The translations under genes and the position numbers were made by a program. The notes beneath the pieces were generated by a model. The model saw nothing but the letters and a program-made list of their open reading frames with translations, ran no database searches and had not been told where the DNA came from. 64,000 bases of DNA from Caulifigura coniformis (GTDB taxonomy: Bacteria; Planctomycetota; Planctomycetia; Planctomycetales; Planctomycetaceae), in assembly GCF_007745175.1 (NCBI RefSeq), contig NZ_CP036271.1, forward strand, positions 310,001 through 374,000, written 5' to 3'. Shown piece by piece: positions 15,657 through 29,205 of the stretch; position 1 is the first letter of the stretch, and every line of letters begins with the position of its first letter.

Positions 15657-16757
15657 TCATTCCGGCCGACGCTGCGGCTCGCCGGGCCCTGGACGTTCCC
15701 CCCGTCCGGGAGCTTCGCTGCGGCCAGGTCCGCGATCCTCCCGGCCGCCATCTCCGCGGCCCATTGGCCCGTCGCCACGGCCGCGGCCTTCACCGGGGCG
15801 ACCGCCGATCTGGAAGAACTCCCACGCCGGAATGAACGCTTCGCGCATGTCCCGGCGGAGCTGCGAGCGTGCATCTTCGCCGGTCGAGGAATAGAGCTCG
15901 TCCTTGTCTTCCTTGCTCAGGCCGTCGATTCGCTTGCGGAGAACGTCCTCACCGTAGTTCTGCTGCAGCCCTTCGCGGTAGAGCTCCTTCGCCAGCGACA
16001 TGACGAGCACCGACCGGGCCTGGTAGCCCCGATTGAAGCCGAACCAGCGCTCGCCGATCATGCGCCGGAACATCTCTTTGGCGGCGGGATCAGAGATGGC
16101 TTCCACGATGCGGTTTTCATCCGCAGGAGTGGAGACGAGCGTGGACCACGACTGCTGGTGCTGCTGAAGGGCCGTGACCAGCTTCAAATAGCGCTCCGGA
16201 CTGCGGGTGTCGATCTTCCTGATCTCCGGCAGTTCCTTGTCGATGGAGTACGACTGGGACGCCAGCCCCTCGAGCGACTCCATGATCTGGTAGAAGCTTT
16301 CACGGGGGAGGATCGATTCGGGGCGAGGCCAGTCGCGGCCCCAGCGCCGGCCGACGAGTCGTCCCGACCGGTCGCTGTCGATGACTTCCTGAATCTGGCT
16401 GACGCGCTCGATGCGAATCTTGACGTCAGAGGTCCGGAACAGGGCCGCCTGGTCCTGCGGGGAGACCGTCGGCCACCAGCGGGAGAAGACGGCGAGGGCT
16501 TCGGCGACAGCCGGATTGGCGGCGATCCTCGAATGGATGTCGCGGTACGTCGTCTGCTCGGCAGGGGTGAGCTTCTCGAACCGTTTGAAGTTCTCTTCGA
16601 GTTGATGCCGCTCGGCGGGGCTGAGGCGTTCGATCTGCTGTGCAGCGGCGGTGCGGTGGGCGGTTGTCTGGGCGTCGCCGTGCACGAGAAGGGGCGCGGC
16701 CGCGATAGCCGCGATGGTCGAACCGAGCAGCCACCAGACGTCTCTATGGAGTCGCAC
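15657..16757 (-). CDS. Exported protein of the sigma/anti-sigma operon, unknown function
   Basis: 366 residues. One N-terminal hydrophobic segment (WWLLGSTIAAIAAAPLLV) acts as an anchor or signal. Next comes a helical, charged region with a repeated LSPAERHQLEENFKRFEKLTPAEQ pattern, reminiscent of DUF3106-like proteins whose helices repeat (L)(S/T)PxE(R/Q). The C-terminus (about 320-366) is Gly/Arg/Pro-rich and disordered. Its start overlaps the anti-sigma gene by 14 bases, so the two are translationally coupled. It may sense or transmit the envelope signal for the sigma factor; that is inference from position only. Confidence 0.7.
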   Translation of the reverse strand: MRLHRDVWWLLGSTIAAIAAAPLLVHGDAQTTAHRTAAAQQIERLSPAERHQLEENFKRFEKLTPAEQTTYRDIHSRIAANPAVAEALAVFSRWWPTVSPQDQAALFRTSDVKIRIERVSQIQEVIDSDRSGRLVGRRWGRDWPRPESILPRESFYQIMESLEGLASQSYSIDKELPEIRKIDTRSPERYLKLVTALQQHQQSWSTLVSTPADENRIVEAISDPAAKEMFRRMIGERWFGFNRGYQARSVLVMSLAKELYREGLQQNYGEDVLRKRIDGLSKEDKDELYSSTGEDARSQLRRDMREAFIPAWEFFQIGGRPGEGRGRGDGPMGRGDGGREDRGPGRSEAPGRGERPGPGEPQRRPE

Positions 16758-17256
16758 GGCCGCCTCCCATCCGCTTGAGGAGCCCCGAGTCGTGGCTCAG
16801 GGCATCCAGGAACTCGAAGCTGCCGGCCTTTTCATAGTCGTCGAGCTTCTGGATGACTTCGAAGTTGTCGAGGAGGACATCCTGCTGTCGGGGGATCTGG
16901 TAGCGGGCGACGGCGAAGCCGACGCAGGAGGCGACGAACAGGAGGAGGGCCCAGCTGGCCCAGCGGAGGATGCGCTGTCCGTGGCGATACCAGACCGTCT
17001 GGCGGGGATCGAGGCGGACCTCGCCGAGCTTGGCCGTCTGCACGGTTTTCTCGGTGAACTCGCCGGAGGCCTTCGGGCGCGGGAGGAGGTCGAGCAGCTC
17101 GTAGGTCTTCGCGAGGACTTCGACGTCGTTCCGCGCGACGGTGCTGTGGGCGAGCACGGTCTCGATCTGGCGCGTTCCGTCATCGTCCAGCTCGCCGTCG
17201 AGATAGGCGGTGAGGTTGTCGCGTTGCTCAGTGGTGAGGCGAGTCAGTTTTTCCAT
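16744..17256 (-). CDS. Membrane anti-sigma factor (non-zinc type)
   Basis: 170 residues. An N-terminal cytoplasmic helical domain (LTAYLDGELDDDGTRQIETVL) has the shape of anti-sigma domains, then a membrane helix at about 97-117 (LRWASWALLLFVASCVGFAV) and a 50-residue outer tail. The HxxxCxxC zinc signature of ZAS anti-sigma factors is absent. It starts 3 bases after the sigma stop and overlaps the next gene, so the trio forms one operon. It likely holds the sigma factor at the membrane until a signal arrives. Confidence 0.75.
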   Translation of the reverse strand: MEKLTRLTTEQRDNLTAYLDGELDDDGTRQIETVLAHSTVARNDVEVLAKTYELLDLLPRPKASGEFTEKTVQTAKLGEVRLDPRQTVWYRHGQRILRWASWALLLFVASCVGFAVARYQIPRQQDVLLDNFEVIQKLDDYEKAGSFEFLDALSHDSGLLKRMGGGRATP

Positions 17257-17259
17257 GGC

Positions 17260-17877
17260 TCATCTCACAAAGGCTTCGAGCTGTTCTCGGAGGTTGTCGC
17301 GGGCCCGTGAGAGGAGCGACTTGACCGCCTGCGGAGTCATTTCCAGCGCCGCTCCGATATCGGCGTAGCTCATGCCTTCGAACTTATGGAGGAGGACGGC
17401 CATACGCTGCCGTTCGTTCAGGTTGGCCATGGCGGCCTGGACGCGATCCTGGAGTTCCTTCCTGGCGATGAGCCGGGTCGGCATCAGGGCCGATTTTTCG
17501 GGGACCGCCTCTTCCGGCATGGCCGTGGGGGCGGCTCCGGAGTCGGCCGGCTGCATCTGCACTTCTTTGCGACGGACCTTGGACCGTTTGGAGTTGCAGG
17601 CGACGTTGTGTGCGATCGCGAACAGCCAGGTGGAGAACTTGGCGTTCGGCTCGTAGCCGTTGCGGGCCTTGTAGATGCGAAGGAACACGTCCTGGGCGAG
17701 GTCTTCGGCGTTCTCGGCGTTCCCGACCATGTTGGTCAACAGGGCGACCAGGCGATCCTGGAACCGGGAGACGAGTTCTGAAAATGCGTCATCGTCGCCA
17801 TCTCGGGCGCGCATCATCAGTTGCACGTCCGGATCGCGGAGGTAGGGGGAGGAGATCGGGACCGCCGTGCTTGGCAC
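17260..17877 (-). CDS. ECF-type RNA polymerase sigma factor
   Basis: 205 residues. Region 2 is clear (GDDDAFSELVSRFQDRLVALLTNMVGN, DLAQDVFLRIYKAR, FSTWLFAIAHNVACN) and region 4 carries the helix-turn-helix (LNERQRMAVLLHKFEGMSYADIGAALEMTPQAVKSLLSRARDNLRE). The loop between them is long. GTG at 17877 is chosen because GGAG lies 5 bases upstream and because it gives the leader YLRDPDVQLMMRARDGD usual for this group; ATG codons at 17817 and 17814 would cut it off. It heads the operon with the anti-sigma and the exported protein. Confidence 0.88.
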   Translation of the reverse strand: MPSTAVPISSPYLRDPDVQLMMRARDGDDDAFSELVSRFQDRLVALLTNMVGNAENAEDLAQDVFLRIYKARNGYEPNAKFSTWLFAIAHNVACNSKRSKVRRKEVQMQPADSGAAPTAMPEEAVPEKSALMPTRLIARKELQDRVQAAMANLNERQRMAVLLHKFEGMSYADIGAALEMTPQAVKSLLSRARDNLREQLEAFVR

Positions 17878-18121
17878 GTGGGCTCCGCGGTTTTTCAGGC
17901 AGGACACGCGGACGCGGCAGGTGGCAACCGGCCCCGGCTCCGCAGAACGTAAACACCGCTGGCAGTACGAAAGTTTCGCTCTGTCATGATAAGGAGCCTC
18001 TTGCAAAAGGCAAAAGGGGACCCCTCGGCTCCCTTGGCTAAGGTCGTTGCCGGATCCGGTTGACCTTGTCGCTTCGCGGAACCGCGGCGTACGCTTCACC
18101 TGGTCATTCGAGGGCTTCAAC

Positions 18122-18523
18122 ATGCACCGACGGCTCAAAGTCGCGGCCATTTCTGCGCTGGGCGGATCGATCGTCGCAGGCGTTGCCATCGCGGCCGAAC
18201 CCCTCCTGCCGCCGTCGCCTGGACCACAGAAACCACTCCCCGGACCGAGCCACGCACTGTTTCTGGATCAAGGGCGAAATCCCTCCATGCTGATTCCGCC
18301 GGCCACGGGGAATCACGAAGTGCTCCATCCGTTGCTCATCGGGCCACCGCCTCCAGTGGCTTACGCAGGCCGGCCCGCCGCTGTCCCCTCGAACAATTTC
18401 AATCTCGGTTCTCAGCGTTCCGCAGGCGAAAGCGGGACGTTCGCGAATCGAAGGGCTTCTCATCGCCTGCACACGAACCAGGCGAATGGTCTCGTCGCGA
18501 CTGCCGGCGATCCGCTTCCGTAA
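18122..18523 (+). CDS. Small secreted proline-rich protein (tentative)
   Basis: 133 residues. The ATG at 18122 gives a plausible signal peptide (LKVAAISALGGSIVAGVAIAA) ahead of a Pro/Gly-rich stretch (PLLPPSPGPQKPLPGP) with no recognised motif. There is no ribosome binding site, and composition could also allow a chance frame. The gene is divergent from the ECF sigma operon. TTGTCG and TACGCT, 18 bases apart just upstream, could form a promoter. Confidence 0.45.
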   Translation: MHRRLKVAAISALGGSIVAGVAIAAEPLLPPSPGPQKPLPGPSHALFLDQGRNPSMLIPPATGNHEVLHPLLIGPPPPVAYAGRPAAVPSNNFNLGSQRSAGESGTFANRRASHRLHTNQANGLVATAGDPLP

Positions 18524-18686: not shown

Positions 18687-19988
18687 ATGTCGGACGTGTT
18701 TCGCTTCGTTCACGCCACCAACCTGCGCCTCGACCAGCCATTGACGGGTGCCGGTGCGCTCACGGCCGATGAACGGGCTCTTGTTGAAGACGCCACGCTC
18801 ACCGCATTCGCGCGGATCATCGATGCGTGCATCCAGCATCAGGTCGATTGCCTGCTGCTCACCGGCGATTGCTTTGAGTTCCAGTCGGGGACGCTCCGCG
18901 GCCGCCTGCAGATGCAGCGGGGGCTGGAACGCCTGAGCGACAAAGGGATTTCGGCGTTCATCCTCTGCGGGGCACTCGACCCGCCATCGTCGTGGAAGCG
19001 AGGGATGGCGCTCCCCCCGAATACGACGCTGTTCACGGCGGACGACGACGAGCCGGTCGACCTGATGACCGAAGGGCGAACGATCGCCTCGATCGCGCCG
19101 ATCGCGATGGCGACTTCGGACGATTCAAGCTGGCGCGAGGGACCTTTGAACTGGCGGACGCCGGCGGGGGCGTTCCGGATCGGTCTCGTGGGGGCGGGCA
19201 CGCCGATTCGCTGGGAGGGCAGCACTCCGTTGCCGATGGCCGGCCCCGGGGTTTCGCCGGCAGCCGCCCGGCTGGTGCAACGGGCGATCGAACACGGCGT
19301 CAACTACCTGGGGCTCGGTGAAGGGGCCGAGCGGTCGACGCTGAATCTCCCCAGCGGCATTGCGCACGATCCGGGCAGTCCACAGGGTCTGAACGCGGGC
19401 GAATCGGGCCCGAAAGGGTGCAGTCTGATCGAGGTGAACTCCCGGGGGCAGGCGGAGATCAAGTTCCTGCCGTCGGGGGGCGTCCGCTGGATGTCGCTGT
19501 CGGTCGACGCGCCGGCCGCGGTCGATATCAACCAGCTGGCCGAGCGGATGGCGCTCGTCGCCATGGAATCGGAGCCGCACGCCACGGACGACCTGTGGCT
19601 TGTCCGCTGGACCGTTCGGGGCACCACGGGCCAATGGGCTTCGGCCCTTGCCGATGGACGGAATCAGTCGGACCTGTGGGACCGGCTGGAGCGGGAACTG
19701 GGCGCGATCGGTGGACCGCGTCGGCGGCATACGCTGGACGTCGTCGCCCGCCCGTCGGTGGAACGTCGGATCGATCGCGAACCGGGCCAGCGCGATCTGT
19801 TCGAGGACTTCTGCGAGAACATTGATGAGGACGCCCTGGAAGCCCTCGAGGCGTTCAAGGCGGAAATGAACAGCCCGGAATGGTCGAGCCGGGGCTGGGT
19901 GCGGCACGTGCGTCAGGCCCTGTCGCGAACGTCGGCGGGAGATGTCTCCCGCCGCGCGCGTGACCTGGGGGAAAGCTGGCTGGGGTAA
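18687..19988 (+). CDS. SbcD/YhaO-like protein with degenerate metallophosphoesterase site
   Basis: 433 residues. Overall layout and neighbour (a SbcC/YhaN-like ATPase, 159 bases downstream) point to the SbcD/YhaO nuclease family, which normally holds two metal ions in a calcineurin-like fold. Here the ligands are mostly gone. The first motif, usually D-x-H, reads VHATNLRLD with Asn12 and Arg14. The GD motif keeps Asp61 (LLLTGDCFE). GNH(D/E) has become CGALD (94-98). The histidine motif before the last helix is IGLVGAG. The final GHxH is GLGEGA (209-214). A nuclease seems unlikely, and a structural or regulatory role in the complex is more probable. The start has AAAGGA upstream. The C-terminal 70 residues are acidic and helical, perhaps for ATPase contact. 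Confidence 0.7.
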   Translation: MSDVFRFVHATNLRLDQPLTGAGALTADERALVEDATLTAFARIIDACIQHQVDCLLLTGDCFEFQSGTLRGRLQMQRGLERLSDKGISAFILCGALDPPSSWKRGMALPPNTTLFTADDDEPVDLMTEGRTIASIAPIAMATSDDSSWREGPLNWRTPAGAFRIGLVGAGTPIRWEGSTPLPMAGPGVSPAAARLVQRAIEHGVNYLGLGEGAERSTLNLPSGIAHDPGSPQGLNAGESGPKGCSLIEVNSRGQAEIKFLPSGGVRWMSLSVDAPAAVDINQLAERMALVAMESEPHATDDLWLVRWTVRGTTGQWASALADGRNQSDLWDRLERELGAIGGPRRRHTLDVVARPSVERRIDREPGQRDLFEDFCENIDEDALEALEAFKAEMNSPEWSSRGWVRHVRQALSRTSAGDVSRRARDLGESWLG

Positions 19989-20147: not shown

Positions 20148-23100
20148 ATGAGAATCCAGGAACTGCAGATCGATCGATTCGGCGTCTGGCGCGGGTTGAA
20201 CCTCCCGCTCACGACCTCGAACGTCACCGTTTTCTACGGGCCGAACGAGGCCGGCAAATCCACCCTGCGGCGCTTCATCCGCGGGGTGCTGTACGGTTTC
20301 CAGCCGCAGGATGAACGGACGCCGGGGCCCAACCCGAGCAAAGTCTCCTGCCGCGGCATCCTGCGGCTCGAGCACGAAGGCCGCGAGTTCGAGGTGATGC
20401 GTGAGTCGCAGGCCGGCTCGCGCGGCCGGCTCAGCGTCGAAGGCGACACCGACCCCGCCCGCAGCCAGGCGCTGCTCTCCCGCGTTCTCGGAAGCGCCGG
20501 GGAAGGGCTGTTCGAAAACGTCTTCGCGATCGGCCTCAACGAACTCCAGGAACTCGCCACCCTCGATGGGGCTGACGTCGCCCGCCATATCTACGGCCTG
20601 TCGCTCGGCCTCGACGGCGAGAAGATCCTCACGACGCAGCTCACCATCGAGCACGATCGCAAACGGCTGTTCAGCGACGACCGGCTGACGGGCGTCATCG
20701 TCGATCTCGCGAAGCAGCTCGACGGCGTCGATTCCCAGATCGGCAAGACGGTCGACGTCTCGCAGAAATATGTCGATCTCCTGTCCCAGCGCGAGAAGCT
20801 GGAAGCGGAAGTCGGCAAAACGAAGCGCCGCCAGCACGATGTCCAGCAGAACCTCCGCGGCTGGCAGTTCCTGGAGCGTGTCTGGGGGCCTTGGAACAAG
20901 GAGCGGACGCTCCGCGCCGAATACAACGCGCTGCCGTCGCTGGTCGGCGTCAGCGAACAGGCCCTCGATGAGCTCGACAAGCTCGATCGGGAGATCGACT
21001 CGCAGGACACGCGTCGCCGTAAGCTGATCGAAGAAGCCCGGCGGCTGTATGAGCAGGCCGAGGCGCTGCAGCTCGAGCCGCAGTTCGAGGAACATGTCTG
21101 CACGATCCGCAAGCTCGTCGAACAGCAGGACCACGTTCGCTCGACGGAGCGGACACTTCCGGAGAAACGGGCCCGCCTCGAAGCGCTGCGGAAGGAATGC
21201 GAAGAACGGGTTCCCGGCGGGGCCGTGGGCCTGATGAACAATCCGGCCGACCGGCTGGAACTCGGCTCCTCGATGACGCACCTGCTGCTGGACCGCTCGC
21301 GGCGGTACCGGGGGACCGTCACGAGCCGCGGCAGATTGCTGAAGCGTTACAAGAAGGCGGCGGCCGCCCTGGCCCGCAAGCAGGCGGCGTTCGAAGAAGA
21401 GATGCGGCAATTCGGCGGCCTGACGGTCGCGCAGGCCAAGTCCAACGCCACGCGCCGTCTCGATGAACTCGAGAACCTGATGCGGCTCCGGTCGCGTCAG
21501 GCGGCACTGGCCGACGCCCATGCCGCCGCCAGCGAATACCTCAGCACCGCCACGCGCCGCCGCGAACTGCCGCCGTTCTTCTATCTCTGCCTGTGGTTCT
21601 TCGGCGTCGCCGGAGCGATCCTGTTCCTGGGCGGACTGTACGGCGCGATCTTCGGACTGCTGCGTGACGGTGTCGGTCCGAACGTGTGGCTCATCGGGTT
21701 GTGCTACGCCTTCCTGGGGACCTGCTCGGCCGGCGTGACGTGGACGATGAAGGAATACTTCGAGCCGCAGCAGATGGATTTCGGCGGCTTGAAACAGCGC
21801 CATCGCGACCTGGAATCGGAGCTGAACCAGGTCAACCGCTCGATGGAGAAGATTCTCCAGTCGGAGAGCACCCGGCCGGGTGTGACGCTCGATATCGCCA
21901 ATCGCCCCGATCCGAACGCGGAGATCTCGGAGACGGACGTGATGACGGCGATTCGCCGCCGTCTCGTCGACCTGGATGCGCTCGAGAACCGCGAGGGGGC
22001 GCTCGACGCCACGCGCCGCCGCCTGAGCCTGTGGCGGCAGGCCATCCAGCACAAGCAGAAGGAAGTCAGCACGGCGCGCCGCGACTGGTGCGACCTGTTG
22101 CGCAAGCTGGGCCTGAACGAGACGATCAAGATCAGCGAAGCGTTCCAGTCGTGGGAGAAAATCGCGGAATCGCGGTCGGTGTTCAGCGACTGGCAGCAGG
22201 CACAGAAGGAACACGAGCGCGATCGCCAGACGGTCGACTCGTTCCGCAAGACGGTCGAAGACCTTTCGAAGGACCTGAATCCGGGCAAGCCGGTCGGGGA
22301 CATGTACCTGCTCGTGGCGGAGTGGGATCGCCGCCTGCGGAACCTCGAGGAACGCCGCCGCGAACGTGCGGCCCTGAAGGTGGCGTCGAAGCAGAAGCGC
22401 CGCGATGCCGAGCAGTTCGACGGGCCGCTGACCGATCTGCGCGGTCGCCGCGAAGCACTCCTCGTCCGCTGCCACTGCACGAACCGCGACGAGCTGGTCG
22501 CGAAGATCAAGCTGCTCAAGCGGGCGGCCGAACTGGCGACGCTCCTGTCGATGGCGAAAGGGGAACTGGAAACAGTCTCCCGCGCCGAGCCTGAACTGGC
22601 GCTCGTCGAAGACGACCTGCTGGCCTACGACCAGGCACGCAACAAGCGCTCCATCGAAGCGGCCACCGATGAAATCACGCAGCTGGATCGTTCGCTGCAG
22701 CAGACGTATGAAGTTCTCGGCCGGGTGAAGGCCGAACTTCGCGATCTGGAGAACGACCGCCGGGCGTCGTCGCTGCGTTATGACCGGGCGCAGATTCAGG
22801 CCGACCTGCATTCGGCCATCGCCCAGCTGGTCACCGGAGACGCGGCGGCGCGGGCGCTCGAACGCCAGCGCAAGACGCTCGAGAACGAAGGCCAGACCGG
22901 CACGCTCAAGCTCGCCTCGGGCTACCTCAGCCAGCTCACCTGCGGAAAGTACCGCCGCATCTGGGCCCCCATCGGCGAGAAGCACCTCGTCGTGGACGAT
23001 GAGCAGGGCCAGTCGCTCCGCGTCGAACACCTCAGCAGCGGAACCCGCGAGCAGGTCTTCCTCGCCGCACGCCTCGCGATGTCCCGCGAATTCGCCGATC

Positions 23101-23321
23101 GCGGAGCCGGCCTGCCGCTCGTCCTTGATGACGTCACCGTGAACTTCGACCAGGTCCGCACCGAGGCCGCCGTGAAGACTCTGCTCGACATCGCCGACCG
23201 CGGCCAGCAGGTCCTCCTCTTTACCTGCCACCAGCACGTCGCGAACCTGTTCCAGCAGCAGGGAATCGAACCGGTCTGGCTGCCGGCCAACTCGGCCTCG
23301 GAGTTTCGCTACGCCAGCTGA
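20148..23321 (+). CDS. SbcC/YhaN-like AAA ATPase with internal membrane helices
   Basis: 1057 residues. An SMC-like ATPase: Walker A GPNEAGKST at 31-39, long coiled coils from about 180 to 900, ABC signature LSSGTREQ near 962 and Walker B LPLVLDDVTVNFD near 989, then a His switch in LLFTCHQH. Between about 474 and 535 lie two hydrophobic segments (PPFFYLCLWFFGVAGAILFL and VWLIGLCYAFLGTCSAGVTW) with no zinc-hook CxxC; the hinge of the rod thus seems to sit in the membrane. The start follows GGGAGGGG. YhaN-type proteins are proposed to act in DNA repair or recombination with YhaO. Here the partner is a degenerate nuclease, so the pair may do something else. Confidence 0.8.
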   Translation: MRIQELQIDRFGVWRGLNLPLTTSNVTVFYGPNEAGKSTLRRFIRGVLYGFQPQDERTPGPNPSKVSCRGILRLEHEGREFEVMRESQAGSRGRLSVEGDTDPARSQALLSRVLGSAGEGLFENVFAIGLNELQELATLDGADVARHIYGLSLGLDGEKILTTQLTIEHDRKRLFSDDRLTGVIVDLAKQLDGVDSQIGKTVDVSQKYVDLLSQREKLEAEVGKTKRRQHDVQQNLRGWQFLERVWGPWNKERTLRAEYNALPSLVGVSEQALDELDKLDREIDSQDTRRRKLIEEARRLYEQAEALQLEPQFEEHVCTIRKLVEQQDHVRSTERTLPEKRARLEALRKECEERVPGGAVGLMNNPADRLELGSSMTHLLLDRSRRYRGTVTSRGRLLKRYKKAAAALARKQAAFEEEMRQFGGLTVAQAKSNATRRLDELENLMRLRSRQAALADAHAAASEYLSTATRRRELPPFFYLCLWFFGVAGAILFLGGLYGAIFGLLRDGVGPNVWLIGLCYAFLGTCSAGVTWTMKEYFEPQQMDFGGLKQRHRDLESELNQVNRSMEKILQSESTRPGVTLDIANRPDPNAEISETDVMTAIRRRLVDLDALENREGALDATRRRLSLWRQAIQHKQKEVSTARRDWCDLLRKLGLNETIKISEAFQSWEKIAESRSVFSDWQQAQKEHERDRQTVDSFRKTVEDLSKDLNPGKPVGDMYLLVAEWDRRLRNLEERRRERAALKVASKQKRRDAEQFDGPLTDLRGRREALLVRCHCTNRDELVAKIKLLKRAAELATLLSMAKGELETVSRAEPELALVEDDLLAYDQARNKRSIEAATDEITQLDRSLQQTYEVLGRVKAELRDLENDRRASSLRYDRAQIQADLHSAIAQLVTGDAAARALERQRKTLENEGQTGTLKLASGYLSQLTCGKYRRIWAPIGEKHLVVDDEQGQSLRVEHLSSGTREQVFLAARLAMSREFADRGAGLPLVLDDVTVNFDQVRTEAAVKTLLDIADRGQQVLLFTCHQHVANLFQQQGIEPVWLPANSASEFRYAS

Positions 23322-23739: not shown

Positions 23740-25302
23740 TCAACCCACCGCCAGCTCCTCCCGCTGCTGCTGCCCGACCAGAAACAGCAGCCAGCCGAAA
23801 CTGATCGCGGCGATCGCCAGCGCTCCGAACTCGTGGTCGAACTTGAGCAGCACGTCGTACAGGCCGTGCAGCACCATCGCGATGCTCAGGTACTTCACGA
23901 TGAACATCAGGATGTCGTCCCATTCGATGTCGTGAAGATGCGACTGGTCGCGGTACATCAGCAGGCCGACGCTGCCGGCCCAGATTGTGTGCAGGGCGAC
24001 GCACGACAGAAACCGGATGGCGTAGGTCATCGGCGCCGCGAGGCCGTTGTACATCTCGGCCGAGTAGGTGATGCCTTCCGAGACGCCGAATCCGACGCCG
24101 CTGGCAAAGCCGACGACGGTCGCCCCGCGCCACGTCGCGTTCGGGACGCCCCACAGATACAGCAGAATCGGGACCGCCTTGCACAGCTCTTCGCAGAACC
24201 CGACGCCGAAGGTGTACCCCATGAAGCTCAGCCCGAAACCGATCGACGGGTCGATCGCGCAGCGATACGAGAACCCGATGAACTTCACGATGTAGAACAG
24301 CAGGACGATGATGCTGCGTCCGCGGAGGTAGAAGCTCTGTGTCCAGTCTGCGATGAACTGGAAGCCGAGCAGCAGCGCGATGCCGATCGTGCCTGTCAGC
24401 AGTCCCATGCCGACAAGGTAGCCGGGACTGACTTCTTCATCCGGCCAGGCGGCCAGAATGAGACCGAGAAAGCCGATGGCGCTGATCGCAGCCAGACCGT
24501 AGTGCCATGAAGTGTCCCGCGCGAGGAATGCGCCTGGCAGCTTCCTGTCCGGAAACGCGGCGAGGAGCGTCCCGATCGGATCTTCGGCAGTCTCCGGAAG
24601 CGCCTCCAGGCGTTCCGCGAGCGCCGGATCGTTGTCGGCCGCAGCGCGAATCTGCTCCAGGATGGACTGGCCCGGAGCAACGACGCTGATGGCCAGCGGC
24701 AACAGGCACGCGGCCAGCGCCCACAGCAGCCACGGACGCCCGGATGGTGTTCCGCCAGCGCGCGACTTCGACCGCCGGGAAGGTTTTTCGTCGATGTCCG
24801 AGTCGCTCGCCGGCTTCTTCTTTTTCTTCTTGCTGACCTTTGGCGGGAGATTATCCGAGAACTCTTCCTTCTCGACAGGACTGCTCACCAGGTCGTAGGT
24901 TTCCGAGACGCCGTCCCAGTTGGGAGACGGCGATGGAATCTCGTCGCCCGATTCACGCTTTCGCCGTGGCGCTTCGACTTCGCCGTCGGTCAGCCAGTCG
25001 CCGATGTCTTCATCGTCGACGGCGGGCTTTGGCGGCGGGCCGGGTGGCGGCGCACCGTCGGCTGCGGGGAGCGGCCGTTTGACCCTGGGTTTCGGTGGAA
25101 CGACGGCTTTGGGACGGGAGGGAGCCGGCGCGGCGTCTCCGGCGAACGGGTCCATCGGCGAGGGCGATTCGTCGACGGCGGGAGCGGGCTGTGGAATGGC
25201 GACGGGTTCGCGGCAGGCGGGACAGCGGACGGTTCGGCCCGCGTGGCGATCTTCCGCCTTCAGCGTCTGTTGACACGACGGACATTTGACCCGAATCGTC
25301 AT
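23740..25302 (-). CDS. PrsW-family membrane protease with N-terminal zinc ribbon
   Basis: 520 residues. Residues 1-35 form a zinc ribbon (CPSCQQT...CPACREP). A Pro/Lys/Asp-rich linker of about 150 residues follows, then a C-terminal membrane domain with around eight helices. The PrsW motifs are intact: E371-E372-xx-K375 in FCEELCKAVP, His438 in LHTIWAG, and His479 in VLHGLYD. PrsW cleaves an anti-sigma factor (RsiW) inside or near the membrane to release a sigma factor; a similar role for one of this organism's ECF anti-sigma proteins is possible but not shown. The start is the ATG at 25302. Confidence 0.8.
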   Translation of the reverse strand: MTIRVKCPSCQQTLKAEDRHAGRTVRCPACREPVAIPQPAPAVDESPSPMDPFAGDAAPAPSRPKAVVPPKPRVKRPLPAADGAPPPGPPPKPAVDDEDIGDWLTDGEVEAPRRKRESGDEIPSPSPNWDGVSETYDLVSSPVEKEEFSDNLPPKVSKKKKKKPASDSDIDEKPSRRSKSRAGGTPSGRPWLLWALAACLLPLAISVVAPGQSILEQIRAAADNDPALAERLEALPETAEDPIGTLLAAFPDRKLPGAFLARDTSWHYGLAAISAIGFLGLILAAWPDEEVSPGYLVGMGLLTGTIGIALLLGFQFIADWTQSFYLRGRSIIVLLFYIVKFIGFSYRCAIDPSIGFGLSFMGYTFGVGFCEELCKAVPILLYLWGVPNATWRGATVVGFASGVGFGVSEGITYSAEMYNGLAAPMTYAIRFLSCVALHTIWAGSVGLLMYRDQSHLHDIEWDDILMFIVKYLSIAMVLHGLYDVLLKFDHEFGALAIAAISFGWLLFLVGQQQREELAVG

Positions 25303-26896: not shown

Positions 26897-27469
26897 GTGC
26901 ACTCCGATCAAACCCTCATCGACCGAACCCTGGCCGGCGAGTCCGAAGCCTTCGGTGAACTGGTGCGTCGCCACCAGGACCGACTCTTCGGCTCGCTGTC
27001 GCACCTTTTGGGTTCGGTGCACGATGCGGCGGACGTGGCGCAGGATGCTTTTGTGCTCGCCTACCGCAACCTCAACCGGTTTCGGGGTCAGTCGGCCTTT
27101 TACTCGTGGCTGTTTCGGATTGCCTACAACGCCGCGGTGAACCACCAGCGTCGCCATCGCCGGAAATCGCAGTCACTCGACGGACGCCGCGAGGACCTGG
27201 GGGATGAGCCGGTGGATGGACGGAGTTCCTCGGACCCTGCCTCGGGAATCCACACCGACGAACGGACCCGAATTGTTCGCGAAGCCCTGGAAGAGCTTGG
27301 CGACGACTACCGCAATGCCCTCATCCTGAAAGAGATCGAAGGTCTGCCGTACGAAGAGATCGCCAGCGTGATGAACTGCCCGGTCGGGACGGTCCGCAGC
27401 CGCATCCACCGCGCCCGACACGAACTCCGCGACAAACTGACCCGCGTCCTCAAACCCTCCGACCTTTAG
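26897..27469 (+). CDS. ECF-type RNA polymerase sigma factor
   Basis: 190 residues, standard ECF length. Region 2: ESEAFGELVRRHQDRLFGSLSHLLGS, DVAQDAFVLAYRNLNRFRGQSAF, YSWLFRIAYNAAVNHQRR. Region 4: LEELGDDYRNALILKEIEGLPYEEIASVMNCPVGTVRSRIHRARHELRD, a normal helix-turn-helix. The only workable start is GTG at 26897, without a clear ribosome binding site. Its stop is 23 bases before the next gene, an anti-sigma protein, so both are surely one operon. Confidence 0.88.
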   Translation: MHSDQTLIDRTLAGESEAFGELVRRHQDRLFGSLSHLLGSVHDAADVAQDAFVLAYRNLNRFRGQSAFYSWLFRIAYNAAVNHQRRHRRKSQSLDGRREDLGDEPVDGRSSSDPASGIHTDERTRIVREALEELGDDYRNALILKEIEGLPYEEIASVMNCPVGTVRSRIHRARHELRDKLTRVLKPSDL

Positions 27470-27492
27470 TCTGATTCCCGATCGTTCCGTCC

Positions 27493-29205
27493 ATGTCCCG
27501 CGATTTTGACGAACTGCTCTCCGCTTACCTCGATGGCGAGGTGTCGCCCGAGGAGCGCGCGGCCGTCGAACGTCGGCTCGAACAATCTCCGGGCCTCCGG
27601 GAGACGCTCGATGAACTGTCCGAGGTCGGAGACCTGATCCGCGGTCTGCCCCGCGCCCGGGCTCCGGTCGACCTGCCGGAACGCGTCGTGGCAGCGATCG
27701 CTCCGAAGCCGCTTGTCCGGAACGTGGAAACGAAGCGGCGGCGACTGTTTGGAATGTGGCCCGTGATGGCGGCGGGATCGGTTCTCGCCGCCGGGGTGGC
27801 GATTGTCGTGCTGCTGCCCGGCGAGGTGGCGAAGGGGCGTCGCGTGGTGACGGGCGACGAACTGGTCAACTCCGGCGGGGTGCCGGAGGGTTTCGCCATC
27901 ACCCCGGCTCCGGTCGTACCGCCCGTGGAACTGGGGTTCACAACGCCCAACGGCCGGGGCGTCAACAGCGCGCACGTGCAATCGCTGACGGATTACGTCC
28001 AGAAGCTGGGGCGGGATCCTCTTCCGGGTGAAGTGCTCAGCACGCTGTACGGCAATGCCGGGCAGACCCAGGTGCTCAAATACACGGTCGTCGATACCCG
28101 CAAGATGGCGGGGACAATGAAGACGATCCTGACAGACAACAGTTTCGACATCGTCGTGACCGAAACACCTGCCTTGGCCGGTGGAACATCGGCGGCGACG
28201 AGCGGAGGCCGCCAGTTGGTTTATTACGTCGAAGGGACTCCCGAACAGATCGGGCAGACTCTCGATGCGATCGAAACACTCCCCGACTTCCGGGAGTTCC
28301 AGGACCTGGGGACGCTCGCGGTCGATTCTGAAGCAGAGTCCGCCAACTCCTTCGGAGCGCAGGCGGGGCTCGCTGCCTCGAAGCCCGCTGATGAGTCCGG
28401 CCTGCAGGAATCGTTCGGACGTCCTGTCGCGGCCCCGAAAAGCGAGGCGGCTGGTGCTGCTGCCGCTGGTCAGCTCTTCGCCGCGCCCGAGGACTTGTCA
28501 TCTGCGGCTGCAAAGAGCAGGTGGGCGGACAGGCAGGCTACGAACGAGTCCGAGAAGGACTTCAGCAAGCTTGCGGAATCGAAGCCCGCCTCGGATCCGA
28601 AGGAATTGCCGTCCGCGCCGCCAGCCCCGGCCGCGCCGTCCGAGCCCATGGTCACGACGTCCGAGCCAGTCGCCACGACTCCGGCCCTCACGACGCCGGA
28701 ATCCGCCCCGGCCCAGGTCTCGAACGGACGTGGTGTTTCGGCCCAGATCGATTCGCAGGCCGCGATGCCGATCGTCGAGACCATGCTCCGCAATCGGTCG
28801 CAGGGCAATGGTGTTCAGGGAAACAGTTTGAAGGGCAACGGCCTGCAGCGCGGGTTGGCCGGCCAGAACCAGACCTGGAACGTCCGCCGTTCGCGGAGCA
28901 ATGGGGTGGTTCAGGAAAACGCGGCGGGCAATGTGGCTGCCTCACCGCGAAACGAGGTCGAGCGATCGAACGAAGCCAAAAGCTCACTCGGAATCAGCTT
29001 GAAACAGCAGCAATCCGCGGCCGAGCCGGTGTCCCAGAATTTCGATGTCACCGATCAGGCGGCGATCGTCAATGCGCGAAACGGCGCCTCCCAGGAACAA
29101 CGGGTCCACGCCCTGATCATCCTGGAGCTCGCACCGGCTCAACCTGCCGTGGCGGTGCCTGCCGTTCCAGCCGCGCCGGCCGATAAGAAGAAGGCGAGCA
29201 ATTGA
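27493..29205 (+). CDS. Anti-sigma factor with long extracytoplasmic domain
   Basis: 570 residues. An N-terminal anti-sigma domain, FDELLSAYLDGEVSPEERAAVERRLEQSP (1-55), resembles RseA-type domains but lacks the HxxxCxxC zinc site. A membrane helix lies at about 88-109 (MWPVMAAGSVLAAGVAIVVLL). The outer part of 450 residues starts with a compact region (about 150-270, ending in LVYYVEGTPEQIGQTLDAIETLP) that looks folded. It then becomes Ala/Ser/Pro-rich and Gln/Asn/Gly-rich (NGVQGNSLKGNGLQ). A short conserved-looking end (VHALIILELAPAQ) follows. It probably binds the sigma factor encoded upstream and senses an envelope signal. Confidence 0.8.
   Translation: MSRDFDELLSAYLDGEVSPEERAAVERRLEQSPGLRETLDELSEVGDLIRGLPRARAPVDLPERVVAAIAPKPLVRNVETKRRRLFGMWPVMAAGSVLAAGVAIVVLLPGEVAKGRRVVTGDELVNSGGVPEGFAITPAPVVPPVELGFTTPNGRGVNSAHVQSLTDYVQKLGRDPLPGEVLSTLYGNAGQTQVLKYTVVDTRKMAGTMKTILTDNSFDIVVTETPALAGGTSAATSGGRQLVYYVEGTPEQIGQTLDAIETLPDFREFQDLGTLAVDSEAESANSFGAQAGLAASKPADESGLQESFGRPVAAPKSEAAGAAAAGQLFAAPEDLSSAAAKSRWADRQATNESEKDFSKLAESKPASDPKELPSAPPAPAAPSEPMVTTSEPVATTPALTTPESAPAQVSNGRGVSAQIDSQAAMPIVETMLRNRSQGNGVQGNSLKGNGLQRGLAGQNQTWNVRRSRSNGVVQENAAGNVAASPRNEVERSNEAKSSLGISLKQQQSAAEPVSQNFDVTDQAAIVNARNGASQEQRVHALIILELAPAQPAVAVPAVPAAPADKKKASN

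Follow-up and report, generated by a model that had tools for sequence, protein, structure and literature searches.

A YhaO-like protein without a metal site in Planctomycetota points to a job for Mre11-Rad50-like complexes without DNA cutting

A gene pair of Caulifigura coniformis is best explained as a membrane-type YhaO-YhaN (SbcE) system that has become nuclease-free, a Rad50-Mre11-like complex in which the dead nuclease subunit would have a structural or regulatory role; the probability of this reading was put at about 0.72. The pair was found in a stretch of 64,000 nucleotides (the window), and its features are collected in Table 1. The gene for the YhaO-like protein, here called pseudo-YhaO, starts with ATG at 18687, has a GGAAAGGA-like ribosome site upstream, and ends at 19988.

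Table 1. Features of the pseudo-YhaO gene and its partner ATPase gene (positions in the window)
Feature	Position	Strand	Basis
Pseudo-YhaO, Mre11/SbcD/YhaO-like protein without metal site, 433 aa	18687..19988 (stop included)	+	sequence, profile, model
N12-L13-R14, where the D-x-H ligand motif is expected	18720..18728	+	alignment
Asp61, sole surviving ligand of the window protein	18867..18869	+	alignment
G95-A96-L97-D98 replacing GNHD; ligand Asn and catalytic His gone	18969..18980	+	alignment
Gly169 (IGLVG-G169 region) at the first C-terminal His ligand position (LHT motif)	19191..19193	+	alignment
E212-G213-A214 replacing H-x-H of the GHxH motif	19320..19328	+	alignment
C-terminal helices, residues 371-432, where SbcD/Mre11 has Rad50-binding helices	19797..19982	+	predicted secondary structure; SbcD 7yzo_B alignment
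YhaN/SbcE-like Rad50-type ATPase, 1057 aa, 159 bp downstream of pseudo-YhaO	20148..23321	+	Pfam, model
Walker A GPNEAGKST, conserved among dead-clade partners	20238..20264	+	alignment
Hydrophobic helical hairpin, residues 477-526, coiled-coil apex, probable membrane anchor	21576..21725	+	hydropathy, model
ABC signature LSSGTREQ	23031..23054	+	alignment
Walker B and D-loop LVLDDVTVNFD	23118..23150	+	alignment

The initial annotation had described an SbcD/YhaO-like protein with Asn12 and Arg14 in place of D-x-H, GALD at 95-98 in place of GNH(D/E), IGLVGAG and GLGEGA at the two histidine motifs, and Asp61 as the only remaining ligand. The ORF translation and the alignment gave the residues as described, with G169 and E212/A214 at the C-terminal His positions. 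Where intact YhaO relatives have D, H, D, N, H, H, H and H, pseudo-YhaO has N12, R14, D61, A96, L97, G169, E212 and A214; one of the eight metal-ligand and catalytic positions (seven di-metal ligands plus the catalytic His) is kept, and the loss is far beyond chance. No domain was recognised in pseudo-YhaO by a Pfam search, and Pfam gave isolated weak matches only on 25 members of its clade, so domain models were unusable for counting this form. NCBIfam left Mre11/SbcD traces below threshold at residues 34-110 without reaching any curated cut-off, the score against the SbcD model TIGR00619 falling far under its own.

Homology to YhaO is established, on profile evidence, without recourse to the lost residues. 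Profile A1, built from 25 relatives that lack intact sites, was compared with profile A2 using hhalign, giving a probability of 100 and an E-value of 6.6e-49 over 358 columns that cover the nuclease and capping domains, and A1 also matched Mre11 and SbcD chains of known structure, the best at 9e-06. An AlphaFold model of pseudo-YhaO made from A1 alone, with no intact sequence in the alignment, had a mean pLDDT of 89.9. Its top PDB match was Mre11/SbcD (4tug; Z 23.8, rmsd 4.5, 299 residues), and SbcD 4m0v and the SbcCD head complex 7yzo_B gave Z 23.0 and Z 21.8, respectively, the latter alignment reaching residue 404. These matches indicate that the modelled fold spans the phosphoesterase core and the capping domain and reaches the beginning of the C-terminal helices. 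Pseudo-YhaO is thus predicted to have the Mre11/SbcD fold (a calcineurin-like core and capping domain), and not a different one, without the di-metal site.

Wherever the flank could be read, the dead D gene adjoins a YhaN-type ATPase gene in the order D then N, which agrees with the SMC-like complex proposed by the initial annotation. The partner in the window matches AAA_27 (PF13514) at 2.4e-20, and the structural matches of its AlphaFold model are SMC and Rad50 proteins, one Lamassu chain among them. This model, less certain than that of pseudo-YhaO (pLDDT 78, pTM 0.38), has terminal head lobes, long helical arms and a mid helix pair (476-502/513-538). In an alignment of 22 partners the motif residues GK, LSxG, DD, NFD and H1028 were invariant or nearly so, and to judge from these sequences the dead-clade ATPase keeps its Walker A, signature, Walker B and H-loop. 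No CXXC zinc hook was found in the partner sequence; the apex is a hydrophobic hairpin, with a hydropathy peak of 2.14 at residue 477, which both sequence and model make a probable membrane anchor. Using a Kyte-Doolittle value above 1.6 as the threshold for a hydrophobic segment, the ATPase partners of dead D subunits were found to carry one near mid-protein, and the partners of soluble-type intact YhaO carried none, bar a weak one (1.63) close to the C-terminal end in the L212 partner.

Conserved neighbours that might hint at the pathway were not found beyond the gene pair, just local synteny among close relatives. Two sigma-factor genes flank the region in the window at short distance (16747-18189, minus strand, and 26897-29205, plus strand), each followed by a gene resembling its anti-sigma partner. 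A PrsW-like intramembrane protease gene (23743-25302, minus strand), whose product has an N-terminal zinc-ribbon-like stretch, is convergent with the ATPase gene.

Pseudo-YhaO belongs to a clade of 40 full-length sequences, all planctomycete (the dead clade), in which the metal-site loss is shared and old and the D gene is under purifying selection. Sixteen members keep none of the eight positions, 20 keep one and four keep two, and all eight are kept in 31 of 31 intact YhaO relatives. The Asp61 column itself holds N in 15/40 members and D in 13/40. Five ligand columns measured in the dead clade lie between the 34th and 93rd percentile of variability, while H9, A10, D16, G60, F63, G95 and D98 are within the 5% most conserved columns; ligand columns drifting beside a near-invariant core argue for a release of constraint specific to catalysis, with the fold kept. 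Conservation of the C-terminal helices does not exceed that of the remainder of the protein, so it does not demonstrate retained Rad50 binding. Values of dN/dS for the D gene were 0.06-0.21 for close pairs within the dead clade and 0.30 for the window gene and its congener; those between intact YhaO pairs were 0.12-0.45, and those of the partner ATPase gene 0.06-0.27. The pseudo-nuclease reading of the initial annotation is therefore supported, with loss across the eight positions in every clade member, an intact predicted fold and dN/dS of 0.06-0.30, and the gene is not a lone decayed copy.

Of the 37 genomes sampled from the window's family, 34 contained the dead form, one of them just as a fragment at a contig end, and 18 the intact form. 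Both occur together in 17 genomes, and 17, including the window's, have the dead form only; the dead form is kept more widely in this family than the active one. A narrower profile search of genome contigs returned 14 loci, from planctomycete MAGs except one titled just 'bacterium'. The suggestion that the loss is a planctomycete specialty holds (40 of 40) within a sampling in which six records were read from outside Planctomycetota and many relatives come from metagenome-assembled genomes. One genome, G031, contains a broken YhaO fragment (G031:C222:10853-11388) in two pieces, one with three TGA stops, besides one dead form and one intact membrane-type form.

The window's genome is a single contig of 6.76 Mb with a completeness of 99.9%. 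No further relative of pseudo-YhaO and no intact YhaO were found in it, and a search with TIGR00619, positive in 13 of 14 control genomes, gave no match at E 0.01. A second, intact SbcD that would make pseudo-YhaO dispensable was therefore rejected, since none was found, just a small and distinct pair comprising a 484-aa AAA_23 protein and then a 371-aa metallophosphatase with intact GNHD and GHIH (L124:5554-7008 and L124:4587-5702, both minus strand; about G000:C1:3833.6-3836.0 kb). This pair is possibly the last Mre11-type nuclease in the genome.

A tree of 50 D subunits, from which five of the ligand columns had been removed and with which a 43-row tree agrees, splits exactly into soluble-type and membrane-type sequences (100/98). 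Pseudo-YhaO falls inside the YhaO tree, the dead clade being nested in the membrane-type (TM) YhaON lineage (100/98). The dead clade (100/99) forms one clade (100/99) with a half-degraded set (100/97) made up of four sequences of family f5 and L158 from the window's family, whose partner has a hydropathy peak of 1.55, just under the threshold. The four f5 members have kept D-x-H and lost GNH and the first His of GH-x-H, and the simplest reading is a stepwise loss, earlier on the GNH and C-terminal His side and afterwards on the D-x-H side. L058, L143, L144 and L145, half-degraded YhaO sequences with this same pattern that belong to a second family of this class, have the look of evolutionary intermediates. 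Within the sampling, metal-site loss is confined to one planctomycete family and the half-degraded set, mostly of the second family of the class.

It was also considered whether membrane anchoring arose jointly with nuclease loss. This was rejected because a hairpin partner accompanies an intact nuclease in Listeria, in a Deinococcus plasmid pair, in G031 (L045) and in several families from other classes of Planctomycetota; anchoring to the membrane would predate the loss of the nuclease. Proteobacterial plasmid YhaON pairs have an intact nuclease and a soluble-type ATPase. Few evolutionary events stand behind the link between hairpin and nuclease state, which is descriptive rather than statistical. 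The Deinococcus actinosclerus plasmid pair (L163:4890-10333) is of membrane type, and its occurrence outside both Planctomycetota and Bacillota hints at lateral transfer of the membrane-type lineage.

The closest likeness to a known system is with YhaO-YhaN (SbcE) of Listeria (L168; Bacillota), which shares with the window pair the D-then-N order, a Mre11-like D subunit and a Rad50-like ATPase with a hydrophobic hairpin in mid coiled coil. Listeria YhaO and the window gene fall together in the TM lineage (100/98), but the metal-site motifs (GNHD, GHIH) of the former are intact whereas those of the window protein are lost. Soluble-type YhaON of Proteobacteria plasmids and Planctomycetota has the same two-gene plan and D-subunit family, and differs in its intact nuclease, its ATPase without a hairpin and its separate tree branch. 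As in SbcCD and Mre11-Rad50, the D subunit is predicted to adopt a Mre11 fold that includes a capping domain and C-terminal helices, and the partner is of Rad50/SMC type; unlike them, the window pair has no di-metal site and no zinc hook, and a hydrophobic hairpin stands at the apex. In PMC4205851 and PMC7031210, B. subtilis SbcE/YhaN is presented as an SMC-like double-strand-break repair protein and SsbA interactor. Fungal Dis3/RNase II pseudonucleases, according to PMC8097288, are likewise inactive paralogues retained for a non-catalytic role, although their RNase fold is unrelated to that of the window protein and the role is in RNA binding. An inactive bacterial Mre11 or YhaO was not found in a literature search that had most subscription journals beyond its reach.

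Four other explanations were weighed. It is conceivable that the dead subunit acts as an inhibitor, competing or forming mixed dimers with intact YhaO in the cell and so restraining its nuclease, because Mre11 works as a dimer and both forms coexist in 17 of the 37 family genomes. This is improbable, however, as another 17 genomes, the window's own included, hold the dead form without intact YhaO, each form has its own cognate ATPase, usually of a differing type (membrane or soluble), and the tree split between the two is deep. Equally improbable is a Lamassu-like anti-phage or anti-plasmid device, with a DNA-sensing Rad50-like ATPase and a non-Mre11 effector. Part of the ATPase does match PADLOC LmuB (1.2e-15), and its structural matches include a Lamassu chain, but LmuB matches are expected from any Rad50-like protein. 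The LmuB-LmuA arrangement was not seen, the partial LmuB score belonging to the ATPase alone; no conserved effector gene linked to the pair was found, and the pair is in nearly all family genomes, unlike patchy defence systems.

A changed enzyme, with a new activity in the cleft that is metal-free or uses another metal, is a shade less probable still. Strong constraint on the D gene and a few conserved polar residues (H9, T37, D98, N112) would fit such an enzyme, yet nearly all strongly conserved polar positions (H9, D16, T37, D98, N112, R267) are structural and common to intact YhaO, near-invariant positions without an intact counterpart are mainly Trp103 and Trp308, and the former ligand columns vary freely with no new invariant D/E/H/K/C cluster. 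The least probable explanation, already largely refuted, is a decaying pseudogene retained by chance beside a useful ATPase gene. The D gene does diverge faster in the dead clade than in the intact one (mean column entropy over the phosphoesterase domain 2.34 vs 1.45), with extreme degradation in the members from G003, G004 and G014; nevertheless, its low dN/dS, frames open throughout, near-invariant core residues and presence in 34 of 37 genomes all speak against decay.

Under the preferred reading of a nuclease-free YhaO-YhaN complex, the dead subunit would still dimerise, its C-terminal helices gripping the base of the ATPase coiled coils, and the dimer would act as a clamp, keeping a pair of YhaN heads over DNA and linking opening and closing to the binding of ATP. 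At the membrane, such a complex would bind or tether DNA rather than cut it, and cutting may have disappeared since the ATP-driven clamp is all that the job, possibly tethering, end protection or signalling, requires. Mre11 also acts as a dimeric clamp at the base of the Rad50 coiled coils. With the nuclease-deficient SbcD H84Q, the ATPase of E. coli SbcCD was down by just about 15% (PMC6265447), a loss small enough for a dead D subunit to coexist with a working motor. From this mild effect and the clamp role of Mre11, we infer that the planctomycete D subunit serves as clamp or coupler of a membrane-bound, nuclease-free YhaN complex.

To the earlier pseudo-nuclease annotation are added the nature of the complex, a membrane-type (Bacillota-like) YhaON, and the greater frequency of the dead form than the active one in the family. 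The dead clade is a protein family, its representative in the window escaping Pfam and every curated NCBIfam cut-off. A broader proposal is tentative, at slightly under even odds: that a whole planctomycete family has a membrane-anchored Rad50-Mre11-like machine in which cutting has been permanently abandoned and whose core role is structural, for example the tethering of the nucleoid or of broken DNA to the membrane. If true, nature would have produced its own separation-of-function form of Mre11-Rad50. Nuclease-requiring and clamp-only functions of Mre11-Rad50 are usually probed with engineered dead mutants; evolution has apparently made a dead version of Mre11 and kept it family-wide beside an intact, probably membrane-bound motor. 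The gene pair points to a job for Mre11-Rad50-like complexes without DNA cutting, and this nuclease-independent role would be directly testable.
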